A stretch of DNA of 37,371 nucleotides, taken from the IMG/VR virus record IMGVR_UViG_3300011187_000025, positions 1-37,371 of that record; one strand, written 5' to 3'. Within the stretch, counting starts at the first letter, position 1; each line of letters starts with the position of its first letter. Origin of the DNA: a virus. Below, one piece after another: positions 2,980 through 37,337 of the stretch. Made by a program: the position numbers and the translations under genes. Below the pieces are notes generated by a model. It ran no database searches. It was not told where the DNA came from and worked only from the letters and a program-made list of their open reading frames with translations.

Positions 2980-2985
2980 ATGGAG

Positions 2986-4611
2986 ATGGACGATTTTCAT
3001 AAATATTTTTATAAACGACAGAGGCTTATAGAGGAAGGCGTTAAGCAGCGTGTCCAGAGATATATGCCAATGTTTAAAAAATTTCTATCGGATGATAATG
3101 AAATTTATGGGGGAAATATCACAAGAATCATCGAAAAGGCTGTAAGAGAACTAAAGAAAGATAATGTCGTGGTTTGGTTACTATATAGATTTCGTGAAGA
3201 TATAAAGGAAGCAAACATTGAAAACGTCTTACTTGAAAGAACATATATTAAATATAAGGAGCATATTAATAGCCTACAACATTATCTAAGTCTACCTATT
3301 CCTAAAATTCAGAATTTTAACTTTAATCATGAACTTTCTATTTATGAGGTTGCTGATATCTTTAGAGGTCTGGAAGATGAATGGAAAGCTGGAAGGGCGC
3401 AATGGATTGATATTACTGAAAATATAAGAGATGGTGATTTGAAGGAACTTATAAAGTTCCCAGATGGGTTTGTTTGGTTTGATTTGGGTGTAAATTTCTG
3501 TCGTATTGAGGGAGAGGCCATGGGACACTGTGGTAATTCAGCAGAATACGATTATTCAGATAGCGTTTTATCTCTTAGAAAAGTAGTAAAGGAGGGGGGT
3601 AGAATTATGTCTAGACCCTCCCTAACATTTATTTTAAATGATAATTCAACTCTTGGAGAAATGAAGGGTAGAGCAAATGAAAAACCGAATCCCAAGTATC
3701 ACCCATATATTATGAAGCTTCTTCTACTCAAGAATAGGGATGGTGGATATCTAATTAAACATATTGCTGGTGGGGGTTATGCACCAGAAGGAAATTTCGA
3801 TATTTTAGATTTAAGTGAGCGGGATAGACATACCTTATTCACACTTAGACCAGAACTGAAATCCTTTAAATATAGGTATGATGTTGGTGAAATCGGTATT
3901 GATGATATTGAAAACGCAGTGGCTAAAATATTTAAAACAGATGAAACGAATGTTAATGTAGAGGGGGCAACTATTAAAATCAATGAAGCATACCCAGATT
4001 TGGAAGCTCTAAATAATGATAACGATATGGATTGGCCCGAGAACTTAGCTAGGTATATCCCCCACCTTATAGGTGCCGAGTTTTGGGATTATTATGATGA
4101 TATGGAAATGGATAGTGAAGAAGTTAAGGAAAACTTTGAGGCTTATCTCAGCACAAACACAAAGGTCCGAGAGAGGATTCAAGAATTTGCAGATGATATA
4201 CGTGGCGAAAAAGTGGAATTGGATTGGAATGATACGGATTCCATATATGATCTAATTGATGATAAATACGGGCTGGGGGATGCCGTTAGGACTGCCATCA
4301 GTGGGGGGTATAATGCTGGTTCTGAGGCACAGATATATAAGAAGGTGAAGGAAACTATAAATGACAAACTATTGGCTCATACTGATGATGATAACATTCC
4401 GTTTAGATTCACTCTTGAGGATGATCTTTCCATATCAATGTGGACTGATTTCGATAATGCCTTTGATATAATAGACAACGAAATTGACCCAAGAGATGGA
4501 TTCTCCATGGATGAGAGCGGGGATATATCTTATCGTGAAGACTTCTATGATTTTTCTGTGGAAGCTGCAATAGAGCAATTCTTGGATTTGTTCTACTTAA
4601 CGCCACATTAA
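2986..4611 (+). CDS. Large PcfJ-like phage protein (MGHCGN motif)
   Basis: About 541 residues. The N-terminal 150 residues are helical and basic. Around residues 170-215 lies FDLGVNFCRIEGEAMGHCGN, then SVLSLRK, PSLTFIL, GEMKGRANEKPN and YHPYIMKLL. The order C..E...M.HC, SLR, G..KG..N resembles the PcfJ-like family found on plasmids and phages, whose function is unclear; this is a motif resemblance only. The C-terminal half is acidic (many Asp/Glu) and may mimic DNA or act as an interaction region. The first ATG is at 2980, but a transcript started by the adjacent TAAATA box would favour 2986. The gene converges with the minus-strand gene ending at 4615, with no terminator between them. Confidence 0.75.
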   Translation: MDDFHKYFYKRQRLIEEGVKQRVQRYMPMFKKFLSDDNEIYGGNITRIIEKAVRELKKDNVVVWLLYRFREDIKEANIENVLLERTYIKYKEHINSLQHYLSLPIPKIQNFNFNHELSIYEVADIFRGLEDEWKAGRAQWIDITENIRDGDLKELIKFPDGFVWFDLGVNFCRIEGEAMGHCGNSAEYDYSDSVLSLRKVVKEGGRIMSRPSLTFILNDNSTLGEMKGRANEKPNPKYHPYIMKLLLLKNRDGGYLIKHIAGGGYAPEGNFDILDLSERDRHTLFTLRPELKSFKYRYDVGEIGIDDIENAVAKIFKTDETNVNVEGATIKINEAYPDLEALNNDNDMDWPENLARYIPHLIGAEFWDYYDDMEMDSEEVKENFEAYLSTNTKVRERIQEFADDIRGEKVELDWNDTDSIYDLIDDKYGLGDAVRTAISGGYNAGSEAQIYKKVKETINDKLLAHTDDDNIPFRFTLEDDLSISMWTDFDNAFDIIDNEIDPRDGFSMDESGDISYREDFYDFSVEAAIEQFLDLFYLTPH

Positions 4612-6161: not shown

Positions 6162-6332
6162 ATGAATATCGTAGCAGTAAATAGTATACTCACATGGTTG
6201 ACTGATGTTTACACTAACATCATTGAACACATGGTTAGTAGTGTTATAGTGGTGGTTACGATAATTGCGATCATTCTAACACTAAAACTCATTCTTATAA
6301 TTTTGGACTTCTTTATGTATGGCGGTCACTAG
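6162..6332 (+). CDS. Small membrane protein
   Basis: A 56-residue protein (MNIVAVNSILTWLTDVYTNI...). The stretch from about residue 28 to 50 (SSVIVVVTIIAIILTLKLILIILDFF) is a clear transmembrane helix. It overlaps the start of the phosphatase-like gene by 14 nt in another frame. It is too short to assign; a toxin-like or superinfection peptide is possible. Confidence 0.6.
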   Translation: MNIVAVNSILTWLTDVYTNIIEHMVSSVIVVVTIIAIILTLKLILIILDFFMYGGH

Positions 6333-6852
6333 AATATTTTTCGATCTCGATGAGACTCTGATCCACTCTGTGTTGGAAGATGAAGGTGGTGCAGAGTTTG
6401 ATGTATCGTTTGAAGATGGAACTGAGAAGTATTACGTCCATGTCCGAATCGGAATCAGGGATGTGATCGAATATGCTTGTTCAGTGGTCGGGGAGGATAA
6501 TGTATTTATCCTAACCATTGCAACCAAGGCTTACGCCACTATTATCAACGAAAGGGCTAATTTTGGCTTCAAACCAGAGAACATATTCTCCCACGAGGAT
6601 ATTGAATACCACACAATCAAAACAGCTTACGGTGATTCGCTCATTAATCCCCATATCTATGCTCATAAGGATAACCTCCTTATCGACAATCTCCCCCACT
6701 ATGATAACAAGAGGAAGATAGATTTCATCGGAATATCAAAGACTGTTAAGGATAACTACCTCGAAACGAAAGATTATTACGGTGTTGATACCGAAAGCGA
6801 TGCAATCTGTGATAAGATTAAGAAATTTATAGAAGAAAGAAATAATGCCTAA
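6319..6852 (+). CDS. HAD-superfamily phosphatase, FCP1/NIF-like
   Basis: A 177-residue protein. FFDLDETLIHS (residues 7-17) is the HAD motif I (DxDxT), with the following L-[IV]-H-S typical of the FCP1/SCP (NLI-interacting-factor) branch. FILTIATKAYAT around residues 63-74 fits motif II (the T/S region with ..T.....YA). LLIDNLPHYDNKR around 114-126 matches the acidic motif III/IV position, although the usual DD is reduced to D-N. It is complete for a single-domain HAD. In phages related proteins are nucleic-acid-end or nucleotide phosphatases; the substrate here is unknown. The ATG overlaps the preceding membrane-peptide gene. Confidence 0.82.
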   Translation: MAVTRIFFDLDETLIHSVLEDEGGAEFDVSFEDGTEKYYVHVRIGIRDVIEYACSVVGEDNVFILTIATKAYATIINERANFGFKPENIFSHEDIEYHTIKTAYGDSLINPHIYAHKDNLLIDNLPHYDNKRKIDFIGISKTVKDNYLETKDYYGVDTESDAICDKIKKFIEERNNA

Positions 6853-7437: not shown

Positions 7438-7548
7438 ATGCCCCAAACCAATGACATCACCACATCTGGTGATGCTTCACACGATGACCATGTGACAGAA
7501 CAAATCGATTTTTATATTGAGGACGCATTGGAACATGAAAAACAATAA
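7438..7548 (+). CDS. C-terminal part of the same split phage protein
   Basis: In frame with, and directly after, the TAG of the previous entry. It starts with ATG (MPQTNDITTSGDASHDDHVT...), 36 residues. DDHVTEQIDFYIEDALEHE fits the ADDH...E.I...IEDA.E.E end of the family above. It may be translated from its own ATG by TAG/ATG reinitiation, by amber readthrough, or not at all. Its TAA overlaps the next ATG at 7548. Confidence 0.5.
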   Translation: MPQTNDITTSGDASHDDHVTEQIDFYIEDALEHEKQ

Positions 7549-8099
7549 TGGTAAATATTAATGTGCATTATATCAAACTACTAATTTTCATTATTTCAAT
7601 ATCCACAGCTTTTGGGCAAACTTTTTATAGTCCCAATGGTGTAGGTAGTGTTGGTGAATCCAAGATATCGGGAAATACAACCACATCTGCCGATATTTTT
7701 GTATGGGATATTAATGCTAATTCCAATACAGCCAATTCTCAGTCATTTGATACGCACAAATCTGGTGGTAAACATAATTTAAACATTGGAGGATCGAACG
7801 ATGAAGTCTTCCGTGTGGTGTTTGGTGTGAATATAGATACGAGCGATGCCTTTTGGGACACTGATAGAACTTGGTCTAGTTTAATTACAACATCTTCATC
7901 AAACGCATATGTTCCATATCTAACTCAAGCTACGGTTAATACTTACACATATAACGGTTTCTATTCTCTAGTTGACACATCCAGTAGGGGTTCATTCAGT
8001 CTCTCTGATAATAGTTTGACTTGGTCTGCTGTCCCCGAACCCACCAATGCTCTCGTGGGGTTGGTTCTTTTGTGTGGCTTAATAAGAAGACGAAGATAA
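7548..8099 (+). CDS. Secreted PEP-CTERM protein
   Basis: A 183-residue protein. Residues 1-23 form a signal peptide (basic start, LLIFIISISTAFG, cleavage after AFG). The middle is Ser/Thr/Asn-rich and beta-like, with no known domain. The last 22 residues are AVPEPTNALVGLVLLCGL and RRRR: a textbook PEP-CTERM sorting tag recognised by host exosortase. Such tags are known from bacterial chromosomes, especially Verrucomicrobia, and are unexpected in a phage. The phage has no exosortase here, so processing would depend on the host. The start overlaps the preceding stop. There is a second PEP-CTERM gene at 9585. Confidence 0.85.
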   Translation: MVNINVHYIKLLIFIISISTAFGQTFYSPNGVGSVGESKISGNTTTSADIFVWDINANSNTANSQSFDTHKSGGKHNLNIGGSNDEVFRVVFGVNIDTSDAFWDTDRTWSSLITTSSSNAYVPYLTQATVNTYTYNGFYSLVDTSSRGSFSLSDNSLTWSAVPEPTNALVGLVLLCGLIRRRR

Positions 8100-8106
8100 T
8101 TCCCTC

Positions 8107-8134
8107 TTGACAAATCCCAATAATTTGGTAGACT
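8107..8134 (+). promoter_or_regulatory. TTGACA-N16-TAGACT promoter
   Basis: TTGACA 8107-8112, 16 nt, TAGACT 8129-8134; the ATG at 8150 is 15 nt downstream. This gives a short A-rich leader without a Shine-Dalgarno sequence. Confidence 0.7.
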
Positions 8135-8149
8135 AAAAGAAAATAAATT

Positions 8150-8410
8150 ATGCCATATATTAAACAAGAAGACAGAGAAGAACTAGATGTGGGATGTATC
8201 CCGAAAAATGCTGGTGAGCTTAATTACAAGATTCATTTACTCCTAGAAGAATATATTGATATGCACGGTAAAAACTACCAAATCTGTAACGATATTATGG
8301 GAGCACTTCAAGGGGTGCAACAAGAGTTTTATCGCCGCGAGGTAGCCCCATATGAGGATGAGAAGATCGCTGAGAATGGAGACATAACGTTTTACAAACA
8401 ATATGACTGA
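8150..8410 (+). CDS. Conserved phage/bacterial small protein (MPYIKQEDR family)
   Basis: An 86-residue protein. MPYIKQEDREELD, GELNYKIHLLLEEYID, Y.ICNDIMGALQGVQQEFYRR and VAPYEDEKIAENGD are the hallmarks of a widespread small helical family found in phages and bacteria. Its molecular role is not known to me. Compared with usual members the segment between the first block and GELNY is short. It overlaps the next ATG by 8 nt. Confidence 0.85.
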   Translation: MPYIKQEDREELDVGCIPKNAGELNYKIHLLLEEYIDMHGKNYQICNDIMGALQGVQQEFYRREVAPYEDEKIAENGDITFYKQYD

Positions 8411-8999
8411 AGAAGAAATGGAAGAGTTTGGAAAGAAAATTATGCAATTTGGAATTGCAGAGGAAAACATTCTCGATAAAACAAAAACCTATTTGATCGG
8501 TGCCATGGAGTATACCGATGGTCGTGGTTGGCGCGATGACGTAACACCCTTCCTTGAGGATATGGGGGTCACTGTATTCAACCCATACGAAAAGCCCTTC
8601 CTCAACGCTCCAGACGAAAACGAGGATACCCACGACAGGATGGGTAAGCTAATGGCTGGTGGTGAATACGATGAGGTAGCAAACCACTTCAAACAAGTCC
8701 GTGCATTTGATTTGAGTATGGTGGATAGATCCGACTTCATCGTTGGATATGTGAACCCAAAGATACCAACCTTTGGAACCATGGAAGAATTGACAACCGC
8801 AATAAAAATGAAGCGTCCCACGTTTCTGGTGGTTGAGGGTGGTAAACAATACACCCCCCTATGGATCATGGGTATGATGCCACATAAGTATATCTACAAC
8901 TCATTCGATGAAGTGAAAACGATGTTGACAAATATTGATACTGGTGTTAAATCTATTGATAGTGACCGTTGGAGATTATTCAAACCAGAACTAAGATAA
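8403..8999 (+). CDS. Nucleoside 2-deoxyribosyltransferase-like protein
   Basis: A 198-residue protein. TYLIGAMEYTDGRGWRDDVTPFLEDMGVTVFNPYEKPF (about residues 30-67) is the N-terminal Rossmann-like half with the nucleoside pocket. KQVRAFDLSMVDRSDFIVGYVNPKIPTFGTMEEL (about 98-131) gives the D..D and the G-T-x-x-E of this fold, where the Glu is the usual nucleophile. K-R-P-T-F-L-V-V follows. This is the phage branch of the nucleoside-deoxyribosyltransferase / SLOG-like superfamily. A role in nucleotide salvage or modified-base supply is plausible. It overlaps the 8150 gene. Confidence 0.8.
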   Translation: MTEEEMEEFGKKIMQFGIAEENILDKTKTYLIGAMEYTDGRGWRDDVTPFLEDMGVTVFNPYEKPFLNAPDENEDTHDRMGKLMAGGEYDEVANHFKQVRAFDLSMVDRSDFIVGYVNPKIPTFGTMEELTTAIKMKRPTFLVVEGGKQYTPLWIMGMMPHKYIYNSFDEVKTMLTNIDTGVKSIDSDRWRLFKPELR

Positions 9000-9005
9000 A
9001 AAATT

Positions 9006-9113
9006 ATGAAAACAAGAAAAAAACTATTAAGTCATTTTAAATGGATTCTAATCACTGCCGCCCTACTCGCATTGGTCGGATGTTGTGTTGATCCATATGC
9101 CTTCGCTCATTGA
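9006..9113 (+). CDS. Very small lipoprotein
   Basis: MKTRKKLLSHFKWILITAAL then LALVGCC and about ten residues: 35 in total. A basic start, a hydrophobic core and a lipobox (LVGC) indicate a lipoprotein with a mature part of only about 11 residues. It overlaps the next gene. Possible roles are membrane-linked superinfection exclusion, but there is no direct evidence. Confidence 0.55.
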   Translation: MKTRKKLLSHFKWILITAALLALVGCCVDPYAFAH

Positions 9114-9357
9114 TATAGAGATGAAGAAACACGTTGAATTATTGATGAGTATGTCCACGGATTTTCTATTGGACGGGTTAGATAAAAATACATATCTAAC
9201 CAATCTAGAGTTGATTGTTTCGGCCATGAAGCAGTTGGAAGAACCCAAGGAGACGGATTGTGACCACGATTGGGGGGATGTCCATTCCAGCTTTGGGGAT
9301 CCTAGTAGCCCTACTGGTAGGAGATGTTCCATCTGTAAAAAACAAGAATGGTATTGA
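9097..9357 (+). CDS. Small protein with a C-terminal metal-binding-type CxxC
   Basis: Starting at the ATG 9097 (MPSLIDIEMKKHVELL...) it has 86 residues; a start at 9121 (MKKHVELL) is also possible, and the frame is open back to 9085. The first part is helical. The end has CDHDWGDVHSSFGDP...TGRRCSICKKQEWY, which looks like half of a zinc ribbon. It overlaps the lipoprotein gene and ends 1 nt before the next ATG. Confidence 0.6.
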   Translation: MPSLIDIEMKKHVELLMSMSTDFLLDGLDKNTYLTNLELIVSAMKQLEEPKETDCDHDWGDVHSSFGDPSSPTGRRCSICKKQEWY

Positions 9358-9358
9358 T

Positions 9359-9553
9359 ATGGCGATAGCAGACCCGAGAATACACATGATCTGTGGTATA
9401 TGTGGATCCAACAAATACTTTGAGTATGAAATCGTTCCACGCGGGAACTGTAATTTTGATGGAGAGGAGTATACTGCGGTTGTTGTGGTGTGTAATAATT
9501 GCTCGTCTCTGACCAATTTAGACGAGATTGTTGAAGAAAAGGAAAAAACTTGA
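9359..9553 (+). CDS. Small zinc-ribbon phage protein
   Basis: A 64-residue protein starting MAIADPRIHMICGICGSNKYF. CxxC at CGIC and a second CxxC at CNNC (near residue 50) form a zinc ribbon, with VVCNNCSSLTNLDE like the [VI]xCxNCxTLxxL end of a known family of small phage/enterobacterial proteins. The frame is open further upstream (9260), but that part overlaps another gene; the start at 9359, 1 nt after the preceding stop, is preferred. The last codons overlap the promoter at 9550. Confidence 0.7.
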   Translation: MAIADPRIHMICGICGSNKYFEYEIVPRGNCNFDGEEYTAVVVVCNNCSSLTNLDEIVEEKEKT

Positions 9554-9577
9554 CAAACTCTATATATATTCTATAAA
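9550..9577 (+). promoter_or_regulatory. TTGACA-N16-TATAAA promoter
   Basis: TTGACA 9550-9555, 16 nt, TATAAA 9572-9577 (TATAAATA if extended, also a late-type box), then 7 nt to ATG 9585. Confidence 0.8.
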
Positions 9578-9584
9578 TATAGAT

Positions 9585-10328
9585 ATGTATAAATTACTAT
9601 CAACTACTCTATTTTTGGCATTTAGTAGTATCGTGTCCTTTGGTGCGGTTGTGTTTCTCGATGACTTTGAAGCAGGAACGAACATCTTTTCAAGTAATCA
9701 AACCACGGGAGGCTACACTAACACAAATGATGTGACAGCCGCACAGAGTGATCAAAACACTTCGGGTGGTTATAATCAAAACATTTGGATTAAGGCTTCC
9801 AATGGGTTTGGATCTAATCGTCAAGGATTGGTTGATGAGGCGCATGGTGACTTCACAGACCCAGTGGGTGAACAAGCTTACGCTTTTCGTTATACTAATT
9901 CGGGGTTCACTACTGTTGCTGGATTACTCGCCAACGCCACTATGGGTGACCAGTATACCATCACTTTCGATGTGGTGGTTGATGGACATAACGGTGGTAA
10001 TGTTTATAATACTGGATTGGTTACATTTGCTAGTGGTGGTTCACGCAATTCTATACGCGGTTTGGGTGATGGTGCTACTAAAATATTAGCATCTACTAGT
10101 GGAACTTATACGGGAACCACTTATCAAAGCGTCTCATTTTCTTACACAATCGGTGACAATGATGACTCGGCTGTAATTGGTCAAGATGTAGCACTCCGTT
10201 TCGATGGATCTACTAATGCAGCCATTATCGATAACGTTAAAGTAGATTATGTGGCTATCCCCGAACCATCCGTAACTTTACTTGGCGCACTTGGCGCATT
10301 ATTCTTACTCAAAAGAAAAAGATCATGA
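9585..10328 (+). CDS. Secreted PEP-CTERM protein with a carbohydrate-binding-like fold
   Basis: A 247-residue protein. Signal peptide: MYKLLSTTLFLAFSSIVSFG. The mature part begins AVVFLDDFEAGT, the way many Verrucomicrobial PEP-CTERM proteins with a jelly-roll or carbohydrate-binding-like domain begin, and continues with beta-rich sequence to NAAIIDNVKVDYVAIPEP. The tail IPEPSVTLLGALGALFLL plus KRKRS is a PEP-CTERM tag. It is larger than the one at 7548 but built the same way. Its stop overlaps the start of the next secreted protein (10325), so both belong to one transcript. This suggests a phage-delivered cell-surface or exopolymer function, by inference. Confidence 0.87.
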   Translation: MYKLLSTTLFLAFSSIVSFGAVVFLDDFEAGTNIFSSNQTTGGYTNTNDVTAAQSDQNTSGGYNQNIWIKASNGFGSNRQGLVDEAHGDFTDPVGEQAYAFRYTNSGFTTVAGLLANATMGDQYTITFDVVVDGHNGGNVYNTGLVTFASGGSRNSIRGLGDGATKILASTSGTYTGTTYQSVSFSYTIGDNDDSAVIGQDVALRFDGSTNAAIIDNVKVDYVAIPEPSVTLLGALGALFLLKRKRS

Positions 10329-11350
10329 GAACATTAAAATTACTAATCATAGCTGCTGTCTTAGCCTTTGCGCCTCAAGCTCAATCGGAAACCACATTCA
10401 CCAATTTCATTCGTCAGGTGCAATACCCCGCTGAGTTAGTCTACGACATGACCGTGCCACAAGTTGGAGAAGAACCCTCACCATTACCGATTGAAGATGG
10501 GGGCGCAAGATTTGAACTATGGACGGTAGCATCCAATGGCGAGACTATCACAAGTTATCTACTATCATCCAAGTTTGTAGGCACTTACATTCCAGTGGCT
10601 ACTCTGAACATCACCTCCGAGGATACGACTTCATCAAATCCACGAACCCGTGCTGATCGTCCTTTCTCCGTTACGTATGATGTTCAAGGTCTGCTTAATG
10701 GAATAGATGACCCTAAACCATCCAAGAGTGTAAACCTCTACTGGCACGTTCAATCCTATGGTGAAGACGGTAATGGGGAAAATATAGTTCCAGCCAATGC
10801 TACTCTGGTCGATAGCGCAACTATTTCAGAGAACGGTGCTGTCACTTTAAATTTTAATTTGACTTCAGTTCCAGCAACCGATATTTCAAAAGCACGAGGC
10901 GAGGAACGATTCACGATTTATTCGCTTGAGGATTTTCAAGCACCAGCGTCTGAAATTGTTGGTAACACGATACAAATTTGGCCTGTTGCCAATGGAACAA
11001 TAGCTGGAATTAATACGGGAGACTTGGTTCGATATCAAGTTCCCCAGTTGACATTAACACTTAACGATCTCTATCCATCATCGACCACATACGCTCAAGT
11101 ATATACAGGCGAAGCGATACTTGGCACGGTTGGGAAAATTATTCCCGGTTCAGCACTAGTAATCGATGAACCCTCACCTAGAGATCACACCCTCGTCGTA
11201 GATAATTATGCTCAATCACTGGGTGCAGACGGTGTATACACAATCGAATTGCTCACCAAAACTCCATTTGGTATTGATCGATTGGCATATGTTACATTCA
11301 ATCTAGATCGCACGATGAAGATCAATGGATCCTTTTCAACGATTGAGTGA
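10325..11350 (+). CDS. Secreted protein of Verrucomicrobial type, no sorting tag
   Basis: A 341-residue protein with signal peptide MRTLKLLIIAAVLAFAPQAQS. The mature sequence is beta-rich, with no transmembrane tail and no PEP motif. Blocks such as PLPIEDGGARFELWTV, SKFVGTYIPVATLNI, TRADRPFSVTYDVQGLL, ARGEERFTIYSLEDFQAP and IQIWPVANGTIAGI resemble secreted hypothetical proteins I associate with marine Verrucomicrobia. Its role is unknown. It is co-transcribed with the PEP-CTERM gene before it (4-nt overlap). Its stop codon TGA lies in the sequence GTGAACTACCCACAA (11347-11361), a fragment of the IS605-like end also seen at 36692. Confidence 0.75.
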   Translation: MRTLKLLIIAAVLAFAPQAQSETTFTNFIRQVQYPAELVYDMTVPQVGEEPSPLPIEDGGARFELWTVASNGETITSYLLSSKFVGTYIPVATLNITSEDTTSSNPRTRADRPFSVTYDVQGLLNGIDDPKPSKSVNLYWHVQSYGEDGNGENIVPANATLVDSATISENGAVTLNFNLTSVPATDISKARGEERFTIYSLEDFQAPASEIVGNTIQIWPVANGTIAGINTGDLVRYQVPQLTLTLNDLYPSSTTYAQVYTGEAILGTVGKIIPGSALVIDEPSPRDHTLVVDNYAQSLGADGVYTIELLTKTPFGIDRLAYVTFNLDRTMKINGSFSTIE

Positions 11351-11783: not shown

Positions 11784-13214
11784 ATGGCAATTCATGCAAA
11801 TCTTAGTAACGATGCTTTAGTGGCTCTAAAGTCAAGGAAACGAAAAGAAACAATGACCTCGTTGGTGATATCGTTTTTATCTCTCTTGTTGGGGGGTATT
11901 CTTTTGAGTTTATTTTTAATTCCGAGAACGATAGTCGTGACCCCCACCTTTGTAACGTATATAGAAAAAACTGAAGAGCCAGAAAAGATCGAAGAAAAAC
12001 CCAAACCAACGATCCAGAAGAGACCAGCGAGACCATCATCTCATAGATCCAAGGTTATTACAACTACAGCACTTACGGAGGTTAGTGTTCCCGTTCCAGA
12101 TTTCGATGTGGATGTCCCATCAGTGGAATATGGTAACTCCATAGACTTCGGTAATGGTAGTGGGTTTACTCCAAATGGTAGTTTGTTCGACGGAATCCCG
12201 AGCGAGATGAAAAAGAGATGTTCTCCAGAGGATCGTAGAAGAAGACTACAAGAAGCTGGTGGATTACCTCAAAGCGAAAAGGCGGTTATGAAATCCTTGA
12301 GGTGGATTAAAAACACCCAAAACAAGGATGGTAGTTGGGGTGATAGATTTAAAGTATCCATGACTGGATTTTCCATCCTCGCATATCTTGGTCATTGCGA
12401 ACACCCAAATTCACCAGAGTTTGGAGAATCTGTAACTAGAGGTCTCACATATCTCATCAATGTGGGTATGAGGAATGATGGTAGATTGACAGAGTTAAAT
12501 GCTAATTCTACCCAATGGGTATATGAACATGGTATTGCCACATATGCATTGGCAGAGGCATATACATTTTGCAAACAACTAAAAATCGATATACCAAACC
12601 TAGAAGAATCCACCAAGAAAGGTGGAGACATCATCATAGATGGACAGTCATCTAGTGGTGGATGGGTTTATAGATATGGAACGAACGGTGCGGGGGATAA
12701 CTCTGTCGGATTCTGGCAAATCCAAGCATTGAAAGCCTGTAAACACACTGGGTTGTGGCACAAGACCAAATTCAGAAAAACTATCAGGGATGCTCTAGCG
12801 TATCTCGAAAAGGTTCAGGGTCAGAATGGGGCTATTGGTTATAGGAATGATCCTAAAAGAAGCCCAGAATTGACTGGTGGTGGTGTTCTAGCTTTCCAGT
12901 TCTGGGATAAAGGAGGGTCTAGAGAAGCTAGGGATGGTGTTGAATACATTAGAAAGAATGCAAAGTTTGAGTGGGGGGATGAATCATCCAATCTTTACTA
13001 TCACTACTATAACGCACAGGCAATGATTAATGCTGGGGGGGATGATTGGGAGTGGTATAATGATATGTTCCAGAAAAAACTTCTCGATGCCCAAGCCGAA
13101 GATGGATCTTGGAACCAAAGAATGAAACACGGTCCAGTCAATAAACATATGGCTACTTGTTTGGCTACTTTCATGTTGGAAGTATACTACAGATTCCTAC
13201 CCGGAACCAACTAA
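11784..13214 (+). CDS. Membrane-anchored squalene-cyclase/prenyltransferase-type toroid protein
   Basis: A 476-residue protein. A transmembrane helix at about residues 26-46 (SLVISFLSLLLGGILLSLFL) is followed by a Pro/Lys/Glu linker (EEPEKIEEKPKPTIQKRPAR), a low-complexity spacer, and then a toroid domain from about residue 150. Repeats typical of the family are visible: ALRWIKNTQNKDGSWG-type (SLRWIKNTQNKDGSWGDRF), IIDGQSSSGGWVYRYG, LEKVQGQNGAIGYRND and AQAEDGSWNQRM. The DxDD motif of true squalene cyclases is not seen, so catalysis is doubtful. The same architecture, with KRCSPEDRRRRL and VYEHGIATYALAEAY, occurs in chromosomal proteins of Verrucomicrobia and Planctomycetes. It is likely host-derived. 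The late-type promoter suggests a virion or surface role. Confidence 0.85.
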   Translation: MAIHANLSNDALVALKSRKRKETMTSLVISFLSLLLGGILLSLFLIPRTIVVTPTFVTYIEKTEEPEKIEEKPKPTIQKRPARPSSHRSKVITTTALTEVSVPVPDFDVDVPSVEYGNSIDFGNGSGFTPNGSLFDGIPSEMKKRCSPEDRRRRLQEAGGLPQSEKAVMKSLRWIKNTQNKDGSWGDRFKVSMTGFSILAYLGHCEHPNSPEFGESVTRGLTYLINVGMRNDGRLTELNANSTQWVYEHGIATYALAEAYTFCKQLKIDIPNLEESTKKGGDIIIDGQSSSGGWVYRYGTNGAGDNSVGFWQIQALKACKHTGLWHKTKFRKTIRDALAYLEKVQGQNGAIGYRNDPKRSPELTGGGVLAFQFWDKGGSREARDGVEYIRKNAKFEWGDESSNLYYHYYNAQAMINAGGDDWEWYNDMFQKKLLDAQAEDGSWNQRMKHGPVNKHMATCLATFMLEVYYRFLPGTN

Positions 13215-13262: not shown

Positions 13263-13733
13263 ATGACAAAACAATAGGTATCCGATGCCGAAACATCGGA
13301 ACACAGGGCATTCCTTTCAGGTTTGCGAGTTAGAATTAAGGAACTAGCACAAGAAGCTAGATTTATTCGAATAGAGGAGAATCGAATAAAGACTAAACAA
13401 AAAATCAAACCCCCATATATAACGTGGGATTCTGAGAATAGAAGTTGGGATGATCACCAAGATGAGAAGTCCAAAGAGTTCTTCGGGTTGAAGGTTCATA
13501 GGAGACACCAAGTTCGTCCCGCTGCAAGAGCAGCACAACTAGCGTATGGCTTTTTACGTGATGTTCCTTACCGAAATATCGAAAAAACAACCAAAGATAT
13601 GTCAGAATGGGAGAAGATATACAGGTTTTATCCCATGGTCAAAGAGGTTAAACGTCTAGTCAAAAAGTTCGCACATAAAAAAGATGAAAGAAATTTTGAC
13701 GAAGAGGTTGACAAATGGTTAAACATGTGCTAA
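13263..13733 (+). CDS. Basic phage protein with an amber codon at position 5
   Basis: The promoter-selected ATG (13263) reads M-T-K-Q, then TAG (13275-13277), then continues in frame as VSDAETSEHRAFLSGLRVRI... for 151 further codons to TAA 13731-13733. If the amber is not read, a start at TTG 13323 gives 136 residues. A competing start at ATG 13285 (MPKHRNTGHSFQV) is in another frame and stops at 13347. The body (LAQEARFIRIEENR, VRPAARAAQLAYGFLRDVPY) matches a phage family of unknown function that I recognise only loosely. A CUA-anticodon tRNA lies 15 bp downstream, so readthrough regulation is an attractive idea; a base error would also explain it. Confidence 0.55.
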
Positions 13734-13748
13734 GTTTAAAAAATCAAA

Positions 13749-13823
13749 GCAACATTAGCTCAACGGTAGAGTAAGGGATTCTAAATCCAATGGTTATCGG
13801 TTCGAATCCGATATGTTGCGCCA
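13749..13823 (+). tRNA. Candidate amber-suppressor tRNA (anticodon CTA)
   Basis: Acceptor GCAACAT / ATGTTGC is perfect, with discriminator G and encoded CCA. The T-arm ATCGG-TTCGAAT-CCGAT is perfect, and the D-arm is GCTC/GAGT. The anticodon loop reads TTCTAAA, giving U33, anticodon CUA and A37. The lower anticodon stem is AGGGA against TCCAA with two mismatches at the outer end, which is unusual and tempers the call. CUA reads UAG, so this would be a suppressor. The charged amino acid cannot be told from the sequence. Confidence 0.7.
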
Positions 13824-23282: not shown

Positions 23283-24005
23283 ATGAAAAAATTATTAGTA
23301 TTATTTTTCGGTATGTTCACCGCCAGTGCGGATGAAAATGTGGTGTCTGATGGATTGTCTTTACCTATATCAAAGGAGTCCATAGACACCATAATCCATT
23401 ATGAGGTTGGTGGTAGATCGTATTACAATTCAAGATTGACTAAACCCACCGTCCCAGCATGGAGAGACACCGCATCTGGTGTGACTGTGGGGTTTGGTTT
23501 TGACGTTGGTCATAACTCCAAATCCCAGATTGAAAAGGCGACCAAGGGGATATTGGAAGATAATGAAATCGAAGCCCTGAAAAAAGTCGCTGGAATGAAA
23601 GGTAGAGATGCTTATTACAACGGTCTACCACAAGTGAAATACATTGTGAATGTGACTTACGAGGAAGCTGAGGAGATCTTTAAGAAAGATAGTCTCCCAA
23701 GATTCACTAAATTGACAGCAAATGCCTTCAATCTAGATAAAGACAGATTACACCCACACTCCAACGGTGCTTTAACCTCTATAGTTTTCAATAGAGGATC
23801 ATCCATGTATAGTAGACGGGAAGGAATGCCTCGGAAAGAAATGCGATGGATACGACACAATATATCCATCGGCAAGGAGGAGAGAGTTCCTTCTGATATA
23901 CGTTCAATGAAGAGGCTGTGGTCTTATACCAAGCTGAGGGGTCTTCATCTGAGAAGAGACGCAGAGGCTGCGTTGTTCCAAAAAGGTCTCGACGAGCGAG
24001 ATTAA
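23283..24005 (+). CDS. Secreted endolysin, lysozyme-like
   Basis: A 240-residue protein. An N-terminal hydrophobic stretch (MKKLLVLFFGMFTASADE) is a signal peptide or signal-arrest-release segment. The catalytic part includes IIHYEVGGRSYYNS (Glu at the expected start of a lysozyme fold), GVTVGFGFDVGHNSKSQI (the G-x-G-x-D equivalent of the T4 lysozyme beta-hairpin), ALTSIVFNRGSSM and LHLRRDAEAALF. This places it in the lysozyme-like (GH24-related) group. It cleaves peptidoglycan. With spanin and holin immediately upstream it completes the lysis cassette. Confidence 0.82.
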   Translation: MKKLLVLFFGMFTASADENVVSDGLSLPISKESIDTIIHYEVGGRSYYNSRLTKPTVPAWRDTASGVTVGFGFDVGHNSKSQIEKATKGILEDNEIEALKKVAGMKGRDAYYNGLPQVKYIVNVTYEEAEEIFKKDSLPRFTKLTANAFNLDKDRLHPHSNGALTSIVFNRGSSMYSRREGMPRKEMRWIRHNISIGKEERVPSDIRSMKRLWSYTKLRGLHLRRDAEAALFQKGLDERD

Positions 24006-26289: not shown

Positions 26290-28878
26290 ATGAATAAAGA
26301 AAAATACTATTGGCTAAACGAGGATTCTAGGAAATTCCTAGAGAGAGGTTATCTATTGGAGGGGGAAATACCCGAAGATAGGATTAGGAATATCGCCGAT
26401 AAAGCCGAAGAATACTTGGGTATCGATGGCTATTCGGAGAAATTCTTGGATTATATGGGTAGGGGATTTTATTCTCTCTCCACCCCAATTTGGTGTAATT
26501 TCGGTAGAGAAAGAGGTTTACCCATTTCTTGTTTCGGTAGTTATATCGAAGACACTTTAGAATCCATCGTTGGAACCAAGTTGTCAGAAGTTTCCATCAT
26601 GACCAAAAATGCTGGTGGAACCAGTGCATATTTTGGCGAGATCCGTGGTCGAGGTGAACCAATTTCTGATAATGGTCACTCCAGTGGCTCCGTCCACTTC
26701 ATGGAGGCTTATAACACCATCATGAACATTGTATCACAGGGCAATGTCCGTAGAGGTAGCTTTGCTGCATATCTTCCGATTGACCACAAGGATATCGAAG
26801 AGTTTTTAAAAATCAGATCAGACGGTAACCCCATTCAGGATATTTCAATCGGTGTTTGCGTCAGCAATCAATGGATGGATGAAATGATTGGTGGTGATAA
26901 GAGTAAGCGCGGTATTTGGGCTAAAGTCATCAAGAAAAGATCAGAAACAGGCTATCCATACATTTTCTTCAGTGATAATGCCAATGATCAAGCCCCTCAA
27001 GTTTATAAAGATAAGGGATTGACGATTCATAATAGTAATCTATGCGTTACTGGTGATCAGAGAGTTCCATCCAATTATGGGTTAATGACAGCTAGAGAAT
27101 TATTTGAAATCGGTGGAGACTTAGATCTCTTCGATAATAATAAAATTGTTAAGTCATCCCCCATGAAATTAATTGAGAGAGATGCTGATGTCTATAAAAT
27201 TACATTGGAAAACGGGATGTCTCATACAATAACAGACTATCATAAAGTTTTAACCTCTACGAAAGATGAAAATACTGGAATTGAAAATCCGCTCACTAAG
27301 TCTTGTAAAGAATTAACTATCGGGGATAGGGTAGCCATCCAAACAAATAAAGGAATTTTTGGTATAGAATCTCATGAAGATGAAGCATTCTTGTTGGGGT
27401 TGTATCAATCAGATGACACACAACATAAAGATACTATAATGTTGGACGTTTGGGAAAATGATTTTGAAAAGGGATATATTCCTGATTGGATATGGTCATC
27501 TGATGAAAAGACTCAGTGGGAGTATGTTCGGGGGTTACTGGTAGCAGATGGAACTGTTCACATGTCAGAAAGTAGGGGCAACCCCATCCAGATAAGTTAT
27601 GCTGATATAAATAAAGAATTTCTACAGGAATTACAGATTCTGTTTACGAATTTAGGATTACAATCATCAATACGGGTGCTTAGGGAGGCTGGGGAATCCC
27701 CACTACCCGATGGGAAGGGTGGGAAGAAATTTTATAAAACTAAAAAATGTTGGAGATTGTTGATTGGTAATAAAAACGATGCTCTGCAAGTTGAAAAGAA
27801 TACTAAATTTTTAAGTAGAAAAAATATATCCCTAGAGGATAGGGTATATAGAGATAATACTAAAAAGTATTATAAAATTGAATCAATTAGTTACGTTGGT
27901 AAGGAGGATGTTTTCTGCTGTGGGGTAGATAGCAATGAACATCTATGGGTATGTAATGGTATTATAACTCATAATTGCAATGAAATCATGCTTTCCAATT
28001 CCGAAGAGGAATCATTTGTTTGTGATTTATCTTCCCTAAACTTGGAACGATGGGACGAGCTTGTGGAAACAGACGCTATACAAACGTTGGTTTACTTTTT
28101 GGATGCTGTGATGACAGAATTCATTAACAAAACCGAAGGTGTTAAGTTCATGGAAGCTCCTAGAAAGTTCGCAATCAATCAACGTGCTTTAGGTGTGGGT
28201 GTTCTCGGTTGGCATTCTCTGCTACAATCTAAAAACATTGCATGGGAATCCATGAGTGCTAAATCCCTTAACAGTGAAGTTTGGTCTACTATTAGAAAAA
28301 GGACAGACGCAGCAACTGAGGAATTGGCTGAACTCTTGGGTGAACCACCATTATTGGAAGGTTATGGTAGAAGAAACACCACGACCTTGGCGGTTGCTCC
28401 CACCACCTCCAGTTCATTTATATTGGGTCAGGTATCACCATCAATCGAACCATTGAATAGTAACTATTTCACGAAGGACTTGGCCAAGGGTAAATTTACC
28501 TACAAGAATCCTTATCTAGTAGAACTATTGACAGAGTTGGATAAAAACGATGTGATGACTTGGAAATCCATTTTATCACATGGTGGTAGTGTTCAACACC
28601 TCGATTTCTTGAGTCGAGAGCAAAAGGATGTCTTCAAAACGTTTGGTGAGATCTCTCAGAAGGAAATTGTCATTCAGGCATCACAAAGACAGAAATTTAT
28701 CGATCAGGGACAATCATTGAATCTAATGATTCCCCCAACAGCGAAACCGAAAGAAATTAACGAGTTGATGATATTTGCTTGGGAACAGGGTCTAAAAGGT
28801 CTATATTACCAAAGAAGCACCAACCCATCTCAAAGTTTGGCTAGATCTCTCCTTACGTGTGTGTCTTGTCAGGGTTGA
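26290..28878 (+). CDS. nrdA: Ribonucleotide reductase class I, large (alpha) subunit, with intein
   Basis: An 862-residue precursor: 551 residues of enzyme plus a 311-residue intein (residues 252-562). The enzyme starts near the ten-strand barrel and has no N-terminal ATP-cone, so dATP inhibition is probably absent. Catalytic residues: Cys81 (LPISCFGS; first redox Cys), the thiyl-radical Cys as the first residue after the intein (HNSNL...CNEI, with Asn and Glu in place), second redox Cys in EESFVCDLSSLNL, and the C-terminal shuttle pair in LLTCVSCQG. It is shorter than E. coli NrdA but complete for a phage enzyme. Splicing is needed for activity because the intein separates the catalytic loop. 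The end overlaps a convergent baseplate gene by 10 bp. Confidence 0.93.
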   Translation: MNKEKYYWLNEDSRKFLERGYLLEGEIPEDRIRNIADKAEEYLGIDGYSEKFLDYMGRGFYSLSTPIWCNFGRERGLPISCFGSYIEDTLESIVGTKLSEVSIMTKNAGGTSAYFGEIRGRGEPISDNGHSSGSVHFMEAYNTIMNIVSQGNVRRGSFAAYLPIDHKDIEEFLKIRSDGNPIQDISIGVCVSNQWMDEMIGGDKSKRGIWAKVIKKRSETGYPYIFFSDNANDQAPQVYKDKGLTIHNSNLCVTGDQRVPSNYGLMTARELFEIGGDLDLFDNNKIVKSSPMKLIERDADVYKITLENGMSHTITDYHKVLTSTKDENTGIENPLTKSCKELTIGDRVAIQTNKGIFGIESHEDEAFLLGLYQSDDTQHKDTIMLDVWENDFEKGYIPDWIWSSDEKTQWEYVRGLLVADGTVHMSESRGNPIQISYADINKEFLQELQILFTNLGLQSSIRVLREAGESPLPDGKGGKKFYKTKKCWRLLIGNKNDALQVEKNTKFLSRKNISLEDRVYRDNTKKYYKIESISYVGKEDVFCCGVDSNEHLWVCNGIITHNCNEIMLSNSEEESFVCDLSSLNLERWDELVETDAIQTLVYFLDAVMTEFINKTEGVKFMEAPRKFAINQRALGVGVLGWHSLLQSKNIAWESMSAKSLNSEVWSTIRKRTDAATEELAELLGEPPLLEGYGRRNTTTLAVAPTTSSSFILGQVSPSIEPLNSNYFTKDLAKGKFTYKNPYLVELLTELDKNDVMTWKSILSHGGSVQHLDFLSREQKDVFKTFGEISQKEIVIQASQRQKFIDQGQSLNLMIPPTAKPKEINELMIFAWEQGLKGLYYQRSTNPSQSLARSLLTCVSCQG
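27043..27975 (+). mobile_element. Intein with LAGLIDADG homing endonuclease inside nrdA
   Basis: Begins with Cys (CVTGDQRVPSNYG, splicing block A) and ends VCNGIITHN followed by extein Cys (block G: H-N|C). Block B is visible as ENGMSHTITDYHKVLT (T..H). Block F is VFCCGVDSNEHLWVCNG. Between them are two LAGLIDADG-like helices: FLLGLYQSDDTQ (near 27388) and YVRGLLVADGTV (near 27523). The first is degenerate at its end (DD for GD), so cleavage activity may be weakened. Base composition is more AT-rich than that of the flanking exteins, consistent with later arrival. Confidence 0.93.
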
Positions 28879-32643: not shown

Positions 32644-34107
32644 TTACAGGTAAGTTGAGACAGTGCCTGGCGTAAACGCAGTACCAAGACCTTTAACAAC
32701 GATTAGGTGGTAATAAAGATTAGCACCAAAGATATTATTAACGATACCATAACGAGTCATAAGTCCAACGCGAGGAGCGAAATCATTCGGTCCGATTGTG
32801 CGTTGCACCATGATTGGGATGTATGGGCAGTAGATAATACCTGTGTCGTAGTATTCAGAACCTTTATAACCAAGTAGAGCATACTCTACACCTTCGCCAC
32901 CGTTAGGTGTGTTGGAGTAATAGTTAGGGCTATACAGGGTAGTGTTCTGAACTTCAGTTCTAGTATCACGATAAACAGTCCAACGGCTACCAACAGTACC
33001 AACTTTAGCAATACCTACACCAGCAGTAGAAACGTTTCCGTTGACTTCAAAAACTTTGAAGTCGGGAAGCATCTCAAGTATGGAGCAAACACGAGGAGTG
33101 GCGATAACAAAGTTAGCAGCACCTCTACGGTTACGAGCAGCCATACGGCCAGATTCGATAAGTAAACGTTGATAGAAGGTAATATTCCGTTCAGCAGTCC
33201 AACGACCGTCTGCACTTACGGGACTCCATATGGAGAACCCAGCACCAGAACCAGCATTGAAGGCAGTTTGGATCATACGCATCACAACTTCGCGGTCGAT
33301 TTCGGCTTGGATCTCATACGACATTGCATTCGTAAGTTCACCATCGATATCGATGCCGTTCATGTTTTTGATGTCTTGCTCCAACTCAACAGCCCAGCGA
33401 GTGGCGAGGCGGCGAGTACCAGCTTCAACAGCAGTCTTTTCGAACTTCAACTCGATCTGAGGGATTTTACCTGTCAGTTCGTAGTTTGCAAGAAGTTCAG
33501 CAATACCTTTGTCTTGATCTGCAAAGTCCCAGTGTTCGGTGTTACCCGATAACCAAGAAGCAGAGGTTCCAGTAAAGCGAGTGTCCAGAAGTTGATAGCC
33601 GAGTTCGTCGTCGGGAAGACCAGCACCACCTGAGTAGTTGTCGGTTCCGTTACCACGAGAGGTGGAAGCGAAGGCTTTGCCGTCAACACCATCAGCACCA
33701 AGGGTATCACCTTGATAAGCATAACGGAGCGCGAAGGCTAGACCAACGGGACCACCCATTGGCTGCACACCAACGATTTCGTTGGAGATCAGTTCTGGAA
33801 AAGTACGTCTAATCATTGGAATCAGAATCTTAGGGAGACGAGCATCGCCTGTAGCGTATGCATCGGAAGCAACACCATTGTTACCAATGGAGCTTGTAGC
33901 ACCGAAAACACCGCCCGATGAGGCTGTGTTCGACTCTTCAAAGCACCATTTTTCTTGGTTTTCAAGAACCATGGCAGTTGCCTTATAGACATGCTCGTTT
34001 TGGATTTCAGGAATTGAATTACTATTGTAATCCAAAATCTTACGCCATTTATTAACGATTTTGTCGGTTCTTGTGCTATTGATGTCGATATCTGGAATTG
34101 TATTCAT
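32644..34107 (-). CDS. Major capsid protein, T4 gp23-like
   Basis: A 487-residue protein forming the head lattice. Recognisable T4-type blocks: KWRKILDY..., KILIPMIRRTFPELISNEIVGVQPMGGPVGLAFALRYAY (T4: L.R...P.LI.....VQPM.GP.G..FA.R..Y), ELEQDIKNMNGIDIDGELTNAMSYEIQAEIDREVVMRMI and FVIATPRVCSILEML. A cut by the prohead protease would be expected in the first 70 residues, probably after an Ile/Leu-x-Glu site; LENQEK or CFEES regions are candidates. It is transcribed with gp22 from upstream, since there is no TAAATA box in the 81-bp gap. GC content is higher than in its neighbours, as is usual for a highly expressed gene. Confidence 0.95.
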   Translation of the reverse strand: MNTIPDIDINSTRTDKIVNKWRKILDYNSNSIPEIQNEHVYKATAMVLENQEKWCFEESNTASSGGVFGATSSIGNNGVASDAYATGDARLPKILIPMIRRTFPELISNEIVGVQPMGGPVGLAFALRYAYQGDTLGADGVDGKAFASTSRGNGTDNYSGGAGLPDDELGYQLLDTRFTGTSASWLSGNTEHWDFADQDKGIAELLANYELTGKIPQIELKFEKTAVEAGTRRLATRWAVELEQDIKNMNGIDIDGELTNAMSYEIQAEIDREVVMRMIQTAFNAGSGAGFSIWSPVSADGRWTAERNITFYQRLLIESGRMAARNRRGAANFVIATPRVCSILEMLPDFKVFEVNGNVSTAGVGIAKVGTVGSRWTVYRDTRTEVQNTTLYSPNYYSNTPNGGEGVEYALLGYKGSEYYDTGIIYCPYIPIMVQRTIGPNDFAPRVGLMTRYGIVNNIFGANLYYHLIVVKGLGTAFTPGTVSTYL

Positions 34108-35443: not shown

Positions 35444-36109
35444 TTATATTCTATTAATAAATTTAATTACTTGCGCTCTCAAATAGTTATCAATTTCCTT
35501 TTTCGGAAGAGTTTTTATAGATTTTTCGAAATCTTCGTATATTTCTTCGAATCTCCCATTATCTTCAACAACAAAAGATTTGGATTCAAGAATCCCGTTT
35601 ACGAATGCCTTTGGATAAGATGGATCCGCAACAGCATCGATTGCCACTAGGTGCATATTTTGAACTAGATTGTAATCAGTATCTTCTTGAAGAGATCCCA
35701 AAGCTCTGGTTGACATACCAACCTTTACTCCATCATTGATCAATGATCTAAGGATTTGTCCACAAGGTGTTGATAGAACTTTTGATTTACCGTGGAACCC
35801 ATCATCCACTTCGTATAGTTCGGTAACTAAGTGACAGGCACGTTCTAAATTTACGTCTGGGCTGGTGGGGTGGTTTAATTCTCCCATAGCCCTACCAGGG
35901 GTGACCATTTCCTCCATGTATCGTTGAACCTCTTGTCTGGTGTCATCCAAGCCATACATTCTTTTATTTTTATTGACTTGGTTACAACCTATGAAAGGTC
36001 CTTTAACATAAAGTGCCGATTCACTGTTTCTATTACTTTGTTCCTCAACGATTTCGAAGTCATCAAGAACATCAGGATTTTCTGCGATCAATTTAAGCTT
36101 AGTTCTCAT
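35444..36109 (-). CDS. Prohead maturation protease, T4 gp21-like
   Basis: A 221-residue serine protease that degrades the core and trims capsid proteins. KGPFIGCNQVNKNKRMYGLD opens the domain; MGELNHP has His80, and GMSTRALGSL has the nucleophile Ser133. HLVAIDAVADPSYPKAFVNGILES follows, with the conserved D-x-V-x-x-P-S that completes the fold. This is the herpesvirus-protease-like fold of T4 gp21. Its TAAATA box (36128-36133) is 18 nt before the ATG, so this gene has a short leader. Confidence 0.93.
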   Translation of the reverse strand: MRTKLKLIAENPDVLDDFEIVEEQSNRNSESALYVKGPFIGCNQVNKNKRMYGLDDTRQEVQRYMEEMVTPGRAMGELNHPTSPDVNLERACHLVTELYEVDDGFHGKSKVLSTPCGQILRSLINDGVKVGMSTRALGSLQEDTDYNLVQNMHLVAIDAVADPSYPKAFVNGILESKSFVVEDNGRFEEIYEDFEKSIKTLPKKEIDNYLRAQVIKFINRI

Positions 36110-36691: not shown

Positions 36692-36723
36692 GCCCACAAG
36701 TCTTTAGCTTGTGGGTAGTTCAC
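36692..36723 (+). repeat. IS200/IS605-like right-end hairpin, copy 2 (perfect)
   Basis: CCCACAAG-TCTTTAG-CTTGTGGG, a perfect 8-bp hairpin, then TAGTTCAC. On the minus strand it abuts the stop codon of the gene 36720-37337. No transposase or TnpB gene is next to it. Confidence 0.65.
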
Positions 36724-37337
36724 TCAACATTCGTCTGTGTGGTAGATTTAATCACATCAAAACTTTTAGTATTCAAAGCTGGGAGTGTCGATGTGAGATA
36801 ATCAATTTCCATACTTTGGAATCCACCACTCTCGATATATGATATTAGTTCGATTAGAGATGGGTTCTTTTTGAGGAGAAATGATAAACCAGAATAGTCG
36901 AAGGCTACAAAATTTTTCGATACAATATCCCCCACGGGATAAAGGAAAGGTTTTAATTCGACCCTGATAGTATCGGACGTTGGACCATCACTAAACTTAA
37001 CTAATTTATTCACCAAACTAGAAATTTCTTGCATTGATTTGGGAGCAGCTACTCTAGCATATTTCACAATGTTAGCGGCTTGGGAGGGTGTTGCTTTTAT
37101 TGCTGCGGCTACAATTTTATATACCCCGAGTGTATCGGCTCTAGTGTCTCTAATGGCTTTATATACAATATATCCTGCCTTACTTTTATTTGCTTCGACA
37201 TCTTTTTCAACCTTCTTTATGACAGACTCCCCAACCCCTTTGGTGAAAGGTGTATTGTTTTCTAAATTTTGGGAAAATGAAGGGGTTGCTATGAAAATAG
37301 CAAAAGCTATAATTGGGAATATAAACAAGTTTTTCAT
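36720..37337 (-). CDS. Secreted hypothetical protein
   Basis: A 205-residue protein with a signal peptide (MKNLFIFPIIAFAIFIATPS, cleavage near FSQ). The mature part is mainly helical (KKVEKDVEANKSKAGYIVYKAIRDTRADTLGVYKIVAAAIKATPSQAANIVKYA...); no domain recognised. Helix-rich segments with IV..A...AP.....I..LV resemble repeated four-helix units in secreted Verrucomicrobial proteins, but this is a weak impression. Two TAAATA boxes lie 14 and 23 nt upstream. The stop codon is supplied by the IS605-like end, and the codons before it (GTT GAG TGA) parallel ATT GAG TGA at 11350. Confidence 0.65.
   Translation of the reverse strand: MKNLFIFPIIAFAIFIATPSFSQNLENNTPFTKGVGESVIKKVEKDVEANKSKAGYIVYKAIRDTRADTLGVYKIVAAAIKATPSQAANIVKYARVAAPKSMQEISSLVNKLVKFSDGPTSDTIRVELKPFLYPVGDIVSKNFVAFDYSGLSFLLKKNPSLIELISYIESGGFQSMEIDYLTSTLPALNTKSFDVIKSTTQTNVE

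Follow-up and report, generated by a model that had tools for sequence, protein, structure and literature searches.

What would a bacteriophage want with proteins addressed to a sorting enzyme of the bacteria it infects? The question comes from a virus record of IMG/VR, 37,371 bases long, analysed whole and called the window here. An earlier look at its letters, the sequence-only reading, had claimed two secreted PEP-CTERM proteins, and both open reading frames (ORFs) are there, at 7548-8099 and 9585-10328, each with a signal sequence and a full tag. We call their products P0002 and P0001. Our answer, to which we give a probability of roughly 85%, is that P0001 and P0002 are phage-encoded clients of the host's exosortase. 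The window itself is part of a large T4-like phage, one that probably infects Verrucomicrobiota.

Exosortase tags on P0001 and P0002

Both C-terminal tags are complete, with a [VI]PEP motif, a hydrophobic helix and a basic end; P0002 closes with ...SAVPEPTNALVGLVLLCGLIRRRR and P0001 with ...VAIPEPSVTLLGALGALFLLKRKRS. Each protein has an N-terminal hydrophobic segment of the signal type, as judged by a hydropathy test alone and not by a trained predictor. The structure model of P0001 was poor (predicted local distance difference test, pLDDT, 44), and its fold was not used.

Would PEP-CTERM profiles recognise these tags? The sequence-only reading had named this in advance as a way to refute it, and the outcome was split: the generic profiles did not, a profile of Verrucomicrobiota tags did. 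Our first such profile, built from 55 tails, found P0001 at E 9.5e-6 and P0002 at E 0.0027, and the only other proteins to score were phage PEP-CTERM proteins. Part of its training set had come from searches with P0001 and P0002 themselves, so we repeated the test with a second profile of 21 tails, taken from loci picked independently of the window. P0001 came top of 15,647 ORFs (E 0.001, or 7e-5 when only C-termini were searched); P0002 was weaker (E 0.12-0.21), yet higher than all non-PEP ORFs. A strict tag detector was applied to the window together with its T4-like relatives (2.45 Mb) and viral contigs unrelated to it (0.71 Mb), about 7,500 distinct ORFs in all. It returned eight tags, every one of the form [VI]PEP[ST] and every one in the window or its T4-like relatives. 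The unrelated contigs gave no tag, and nine control motifs gave no match. A tblastn search of phages with the 26-residue tag gave no match, though the low-complexity filter may conceal matches, and a degenerate DNA pattern of the tag gave 74 matches across all viral contigs, none of them genuine, the pattern being a strict one that does not establish absence.

Then there is the enzyme. That a phage should carry genes for exosortase-type clients agrees with where the machinery was found: in none of 25 related phage records, and in 2-5 copies per genome in the three Verrucomicrobiota genomes searched alongside them.

The homologues lie in the same phylum. A search of 388 Verrucomicrobiota genomes with P0001 gave matches in 14, the best being a genome we call G413, with 56% identity across the domain and a full-length homologue of 268 residues bearing a PEA-variant tag. 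The domain is present in nine of 260 genomes of G413's family, one copy being a 258-residue frame with a VPEP tag. It occurs in single-domain PEP-CTERM proteins of Verrucomicrobiota and also in large secreted esterase-type enzymes, which have an esterase domain (PF03629), a weak match to CBM_4_9 (E 0.008) and a sulfatase gene alongside. G413 belongs to the same genus as the genome of Haloferula sp. BvORR071 (G092), and homologues of P0002 were present in 11 of 18 genomes of that genus, in an alignment that reaches the last residue. For both phage proteins the homology to host PEP-CTERM proteins spans domain and tag. The bin of another genome of the family (G682, with 55 PEP-CTERM matches) includes a phage contig of 39% G+C content (GC) whose nrdA and nrdB are 65% identical in DNA to those of the window (L498, G682:C260); mis-binning of that contig is possible.

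Several points weigh against P0001 and P0002 as clients of a host exosortase. The generic profiles score both under their cut-offs: with PF07589, whose cut-off is 20.7, the two proteins score 15.8 and 10.5 bits (20.2 for P0001 by six-frame search), and TIGR02595 gives 12.9 against 16 for P0001. Haft et al. reported in 2006 that PF07589 misses the PEP-CTERM set of Verrucomicrobium spinosum (PMC1569441), and within Verrucomicrobiota the generic cut-off is an annotation threshold, not a defining trait. The host is assigned from homology; no spacer of clustered regularly interspaced short palindromic repeats (CRISPR) was found, the two 37-base matches in genomes of the family both lying outside any repeat array. 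Searches of viral contigs and phage records gave no relative of P0001, which may be a recent or lineage-specific capture; P0002 has none in the phage loci retrieved, the only viral set searched for it. The record is a 37-kb fragment, and an exosortase may lie elsewhere in the phage, though relatives of 200-230 kb are without one. Expression, localisation and processing of the two proteins are inferred from sequence.

A host-derived cassette in phage DNA

P0001 and P0002 belong to a cassette with two further genes, one for P0003 and one at 11784-13214. Both of these have homologues in 18 of 18 genomes of the Haloferula sp. BvORR071 genus, with identities of up to 53% for P0003 and up to 57% for its neighbour, and homologues of all four cassette proteins occur in that one genus. 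On this homology, which provides a cellular counterpart for every part, the cassette genes are host-derived accessory (moron-type) genes set in phage DNA. In the host, the P0003 genes form a conserved cluster with two further secreted proteins and pilin-type genes, a cluster for which NCBIfam has no name. Initial searches of viral contigs and phage records found no direct relative of P0003; a relative (32%) does occur in two records of another phage lineage, with no detectable gp23, where the gene follows another secreted gene. The predicted fold of P0003 is all beta with immunoglobulin-like (Ig-like) domains (pLDDT 68.5), and Foldseek and VIA matched it to generic Ig-like sandwiches. Such a fold would fit an extracellular role and gives no function. 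A resemblance to RbmA of V. cholerae (residues 221-328, Z 7.5, 3.0 Å over 95 residues) was set aside as a common fold, and no function was drawn from it.

But is the cassette phage DNA at all? Host DNA joined onto a phage fragment at about 7.5-13.2 kb would account for four proteins that all have clear bacterial homologues. Against this, the stretch is flanked and interrupted by phage-type genes, and PEP-CTERM genes also occur on independent phage records. The GC of the cassette is 0.38-0.44, and 0.29-0.37 at third codon positions (GC3), against about 0.60 and 0.70-0.80 in the host homologues; its codon usage correlates at r 0.979 with the phage core and at r 0.307 with a host sample. With composition and codon usage so phage-like and so unlike the GC-rich homologues, a chimera is very unlikely, and on these figures a simple one with the sequenced GC-rich relatives is excluded. 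A low-GC host in the same family may have been the source. Gene order points the same way as composition and codon usage, phage-type genes both flanking the PEP genes and separating them, and by these measures the contig is not chimeric.

All four genes are intact. In the comparison of P0001, P0003 and 11784-13214 with the host, about 73-76% of third codon positions differ and about 26-44% of first and second positions, and P0003 retains 73 of the 77 residues that are invariant among hosts. These proteins have been maintained.

Related phages and the possible effect on the host

A search of viral genomes for PEP-CTERM tags, the check proposed by the sequence-only reading, showed that three large related phages also encode proteins of this type. 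Among 50 records that have a related capsid gene, PF07589 matches five times in G033 (230 kb) and once in G009 (202 kb); among 41 further records, it matches once in G070 (217 kb). Most phage records are fragments, and absence from the others means little. The G009 gene stands alone and encodes 159 residues. In G033 three PEP-CTERM ORFs open an operon that continues with a pilin-type gene and then a 1,052-residue protein of the alpha-amylase family, and at a second locus a PEP gene is paired with a pilin-type gene. The same pairing is found in G070, whose PEP-CTERM protein has passenger-type repeats. The prepilin-type N-terminus of the G070 pilin-type gene scores above the cut-offs of both PF07963 and TIGR02532; of the two in G033, one is above TIGR02532 only and the other below both. 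None of 47 PEP genes in the host loci examined, which are not a random sample, is followed by a pilin-type gene, and the window has no such partner.

The alpha-amylase-family protein of G033 (L098:3915-7073), also secreted, is about 50% identical to Verrucomicrobiota proteins, its nearest cellular relatives being in Verrucomicrobiota and allied phyla; the operon of PEP, pilin and amylase genes was sought in host amylase neighbourhoods, and none was present among the loci examined. One of the three PEP-CTERM ORFs in the G033 operon, of 522 residues (L098:8295-9863, which is G033:208295-209863, minus strand) reads as two PEP-CTERM proteins head to tail, an internal tag being followed by a second signal-like segment. 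Another large phage, G492, has two adjacent exported-type genes (L483:9866-12881) that resemble, by eye and not by profile, the DUF1501/DUF1549 pair known from Verrucomicrobiota and Planctomycetota.

How might a phage profit from all this? During infection the cassette proteins would be made and exported through the host Sec pathway; the host exosortase would cut and sort P0001 and P0002 at the tag, with the outer surface or the exopolymer matrix as their destination. There the cassette proteins would replace, coat or compete with the host's related surface proteins, and the infected cell would have an altered surface or matrix. Such an alteration is the likeliest selected effect, at about even odds. 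PEP-CTERM proteins are reported to be required for floc formation in Zoogloea (PMC9012009), which makes an effect on the matrix plausible. The candidate gains, in no order, are that further phages would be blocked, released virions kept off debris, or the matrix loosened for release; beside the last we note the secreted amylase-type enzyme in the G033 operon. More tentatively, we may be looking at a module dedicated to surface remodelling and shared by a clade of large T4-like phages of Verrucomicrobiota, in which PEP-CTERM proteins and pilin-type or pilin-cluster proteins hijack host exosortase and prepilin processing to give a phage-specified cell surface.

Two more specific functions are compatible with exosortase clients of this kind and would refine the idea. 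The proteins may bind or help degrade polysaccharide, for virion passage through the matrix or for better host feeding and not to keep other phages out, which we regard as possible, if short of probable. The company that the P0001 domain keeps in the host, with the PF03629 esterase domain, the weak CBM_4_9 match and the adjoining sulfatase gene, speaks for this, as does the operon that the G033 PEP genes share with an alpha-amylase-family protein; but none of the proteins of the window cassette is recognisable as an enzyme, sugar binding is assigned weakly and on a homologue, and the structure model of P0001 is of little help. Rather doubtful to our minds is superinfection exclusion by masking or dominant-negative replacement, with P0003 and the pilin-type partners in the relatives disturbing a pilus-like receptor of the host. 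Host relatives of P0003 do cluster with pilin-type genes, and the run of pilin-type genes after PEP genes in G033 and G070 has no parallel among the 47 host genes. Yet no receptor is known, the host cluster is nameless in NCBIfam, and the adjacency counts are small.

Could the genes simply be passengers, host genes captured by chance and carried unselected and functionless? P0001 and P0002 are without viral relatives as far as searched (P0002 in the retrieved loci only), and the cassette lies near tRNA genes in a variable region with a turnover of genes. We nevertheless think it unlikely that they are idle. Four genes have stayed intact despite the divergence from the host at third positions (in the three compared), their composition is now phage-like, P0003 has kept its host-invariant residues, genes of this kind recur in three related phages, and P0003 has relatives in another phage lineage behind a different secreted gene. 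A role for the C-terminal helices in lysis or virion anchoring, with a PEP motif present by accident, is highly improbable. Lysis can involve small exported proteins that end in a hydrophobic helix; here, a separate endolysin-type gene lies away from the cassette (23283-24005), the tags match the consensus of the host, and both proteins are homologous to host PEP-CTERM proteins from domain into tag.

Known systems and the rest of the window

Gram-positive prophages encode LPXTG surface proteins for which the host provides the sorting transpeptidase. As with P0001 and P0002, the substrate would come from the phage and the sorting enzyme from the host; unlike them, the prophage proteins involve another enzyme, envelope and tag, and ours are T4-like phages, with no sign of lysogeny in the window. 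T5 Llp and phi80 Cor, superinfection-exclusion lipoproteins with known receptors, are likewise envelope proteins made by a phage with a possible effect on later adsorption, whereas sorting here would be exosortase-based and toward no known receptor. Proteins of the PEP-CTERM/exosortase (EpsH) system of Gram-negatives are built alike, from the signal sequence to the PEP motif, hydrophobic helix and basic end (PMC1569441), and the homologues of the phage proteins are PEP-CTERM proteins encoded on the chromosomes of Verrucomicrobiota that have exosortases. On chromosomes, most PEP-CTERM genes stand alone as single-gene operons (PMC1569441); here, in contrast, the clients are on a phage in which no exosortase was found, and their genes overlap or closely adjoin their neighbours.

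The earlier view that no phage system of this kind had been described stands for the open-access literature searched, save for one paper that counts, and does not analyse, 13 proteins of the TIGR03118 family that viruses have acquired and that bear a putative exosortase domain (PMC11003980). Those proteins, from Yellowstone virus contigs, are also virus-borne and have the putative domain at the C-terminus; they belong to a different family and are listed as acquired genes without analysis of clade, host or context. Sorted surface proteins supplied by a phage are an idea known for Gram-positive LPXTG proteins. The exosortase version would extend phage takeover of host protein sorting to a Gram-negative pathway whose biological role is poorly understood, and it ties T4-like phages that have not been cultivated to a probable phylum of hosts. 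Exosortase clients that occur naturally on mobile DNA could also serve as a probe of the pathway at the cell surface and in the biofilm matrix. To the earlier view our analysis adds a likely host group, two host-derived neighbours (P0003 and 11784-13214) and, in the relatives, the pairing of PEP and pilin genes.

With genes for gp23 and gp21, the window belongs with the T4-like phages. Its gene content and order are those of G001-G008 from about 15.8 kb onward to its end, with capsid identity of 75-87%; the initial 15 kb is the variable region and contains nine tRNA genes.

Table 1. Positions of the cassette genes, their tags, phage genes of the window and pilin-type genes of related phages
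Feature	Position	Strand	Remark
Phage gene upstream of cassette	2980..4611	+	39% identity to G008
NIF-type phosphatase gene, just upstream of cassette	6319..6852	+	common to G001, G008, G009; phage DNA
P0002, predicted secreted PEP-CTERM protein, 183 residues	7548..8099	+	matches C-terminal ~150 residues of larger host PEP-CTERM proteins
P0002 PEP-CTERM tag	8028..8096	+	VPEPTNALVGLVLLCGLIRRRR
DUF6899 gene, between P0002 and P0001 genes	8150..8410	+	PF21840, E 1.6e-25
Nucleoside 2-deoxyribosyltransferase-like gene, between P0002 and P0001 genes	8403..8999	+	phage-type gene
P0001, predicted secreted PEP-CTERM protein, 247 residues	9585..10328	+	domain homologous to Verrucomicrobiota proteins
P0001 PEP-CTERM tag	10254..10322	+	IPEPSVTLLGALGALFLLKRKR
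P0003, predicted secreted all-beta protein, 341 residues, no PEP tag	10325..11350	+	start overlaps P0001 stop
Membrane-anchored proline-rich protein, squalene-cyclase-like repeats	11784..13214	+	57% identity to host protein
Phage gene downstream of cassette	13323..13733	+	48% identity to G008
Major capsid protein gp23	32644..34107	-	PF07068, E 1.6e-81
gp21-type prohead protease	35444..36109	-	PF03420, E 7.4e-27
Pilin-type genes directly after PEP-CTERM genes (G033 twice, G070)	L098:7082-7642, L088:12880-13614, L302:1581-2249		

One copy of a late-promoter motif lies upstream of P0001, the motif counts being too low to fix timing. A tRNA gene at 13749-13823 has the anticodon CTA (amber), and TAG terminates one of 37 window genes; a read-through gene was sought in the window as a mark of amber recoding, and none was found. 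At the window edge, 36720-37337 encodes a secreted-type protein of unknown function that adjoins the head genes. The nrdA gene at 26290-28878 is about 300 codons longer than most relatives and has an intein-like insertion. At the other end, the protein of 169-627 consists of tandem copies of a short repeat, NGxWYRYERDDxGNxTYxE, and G003 has a partial relative.

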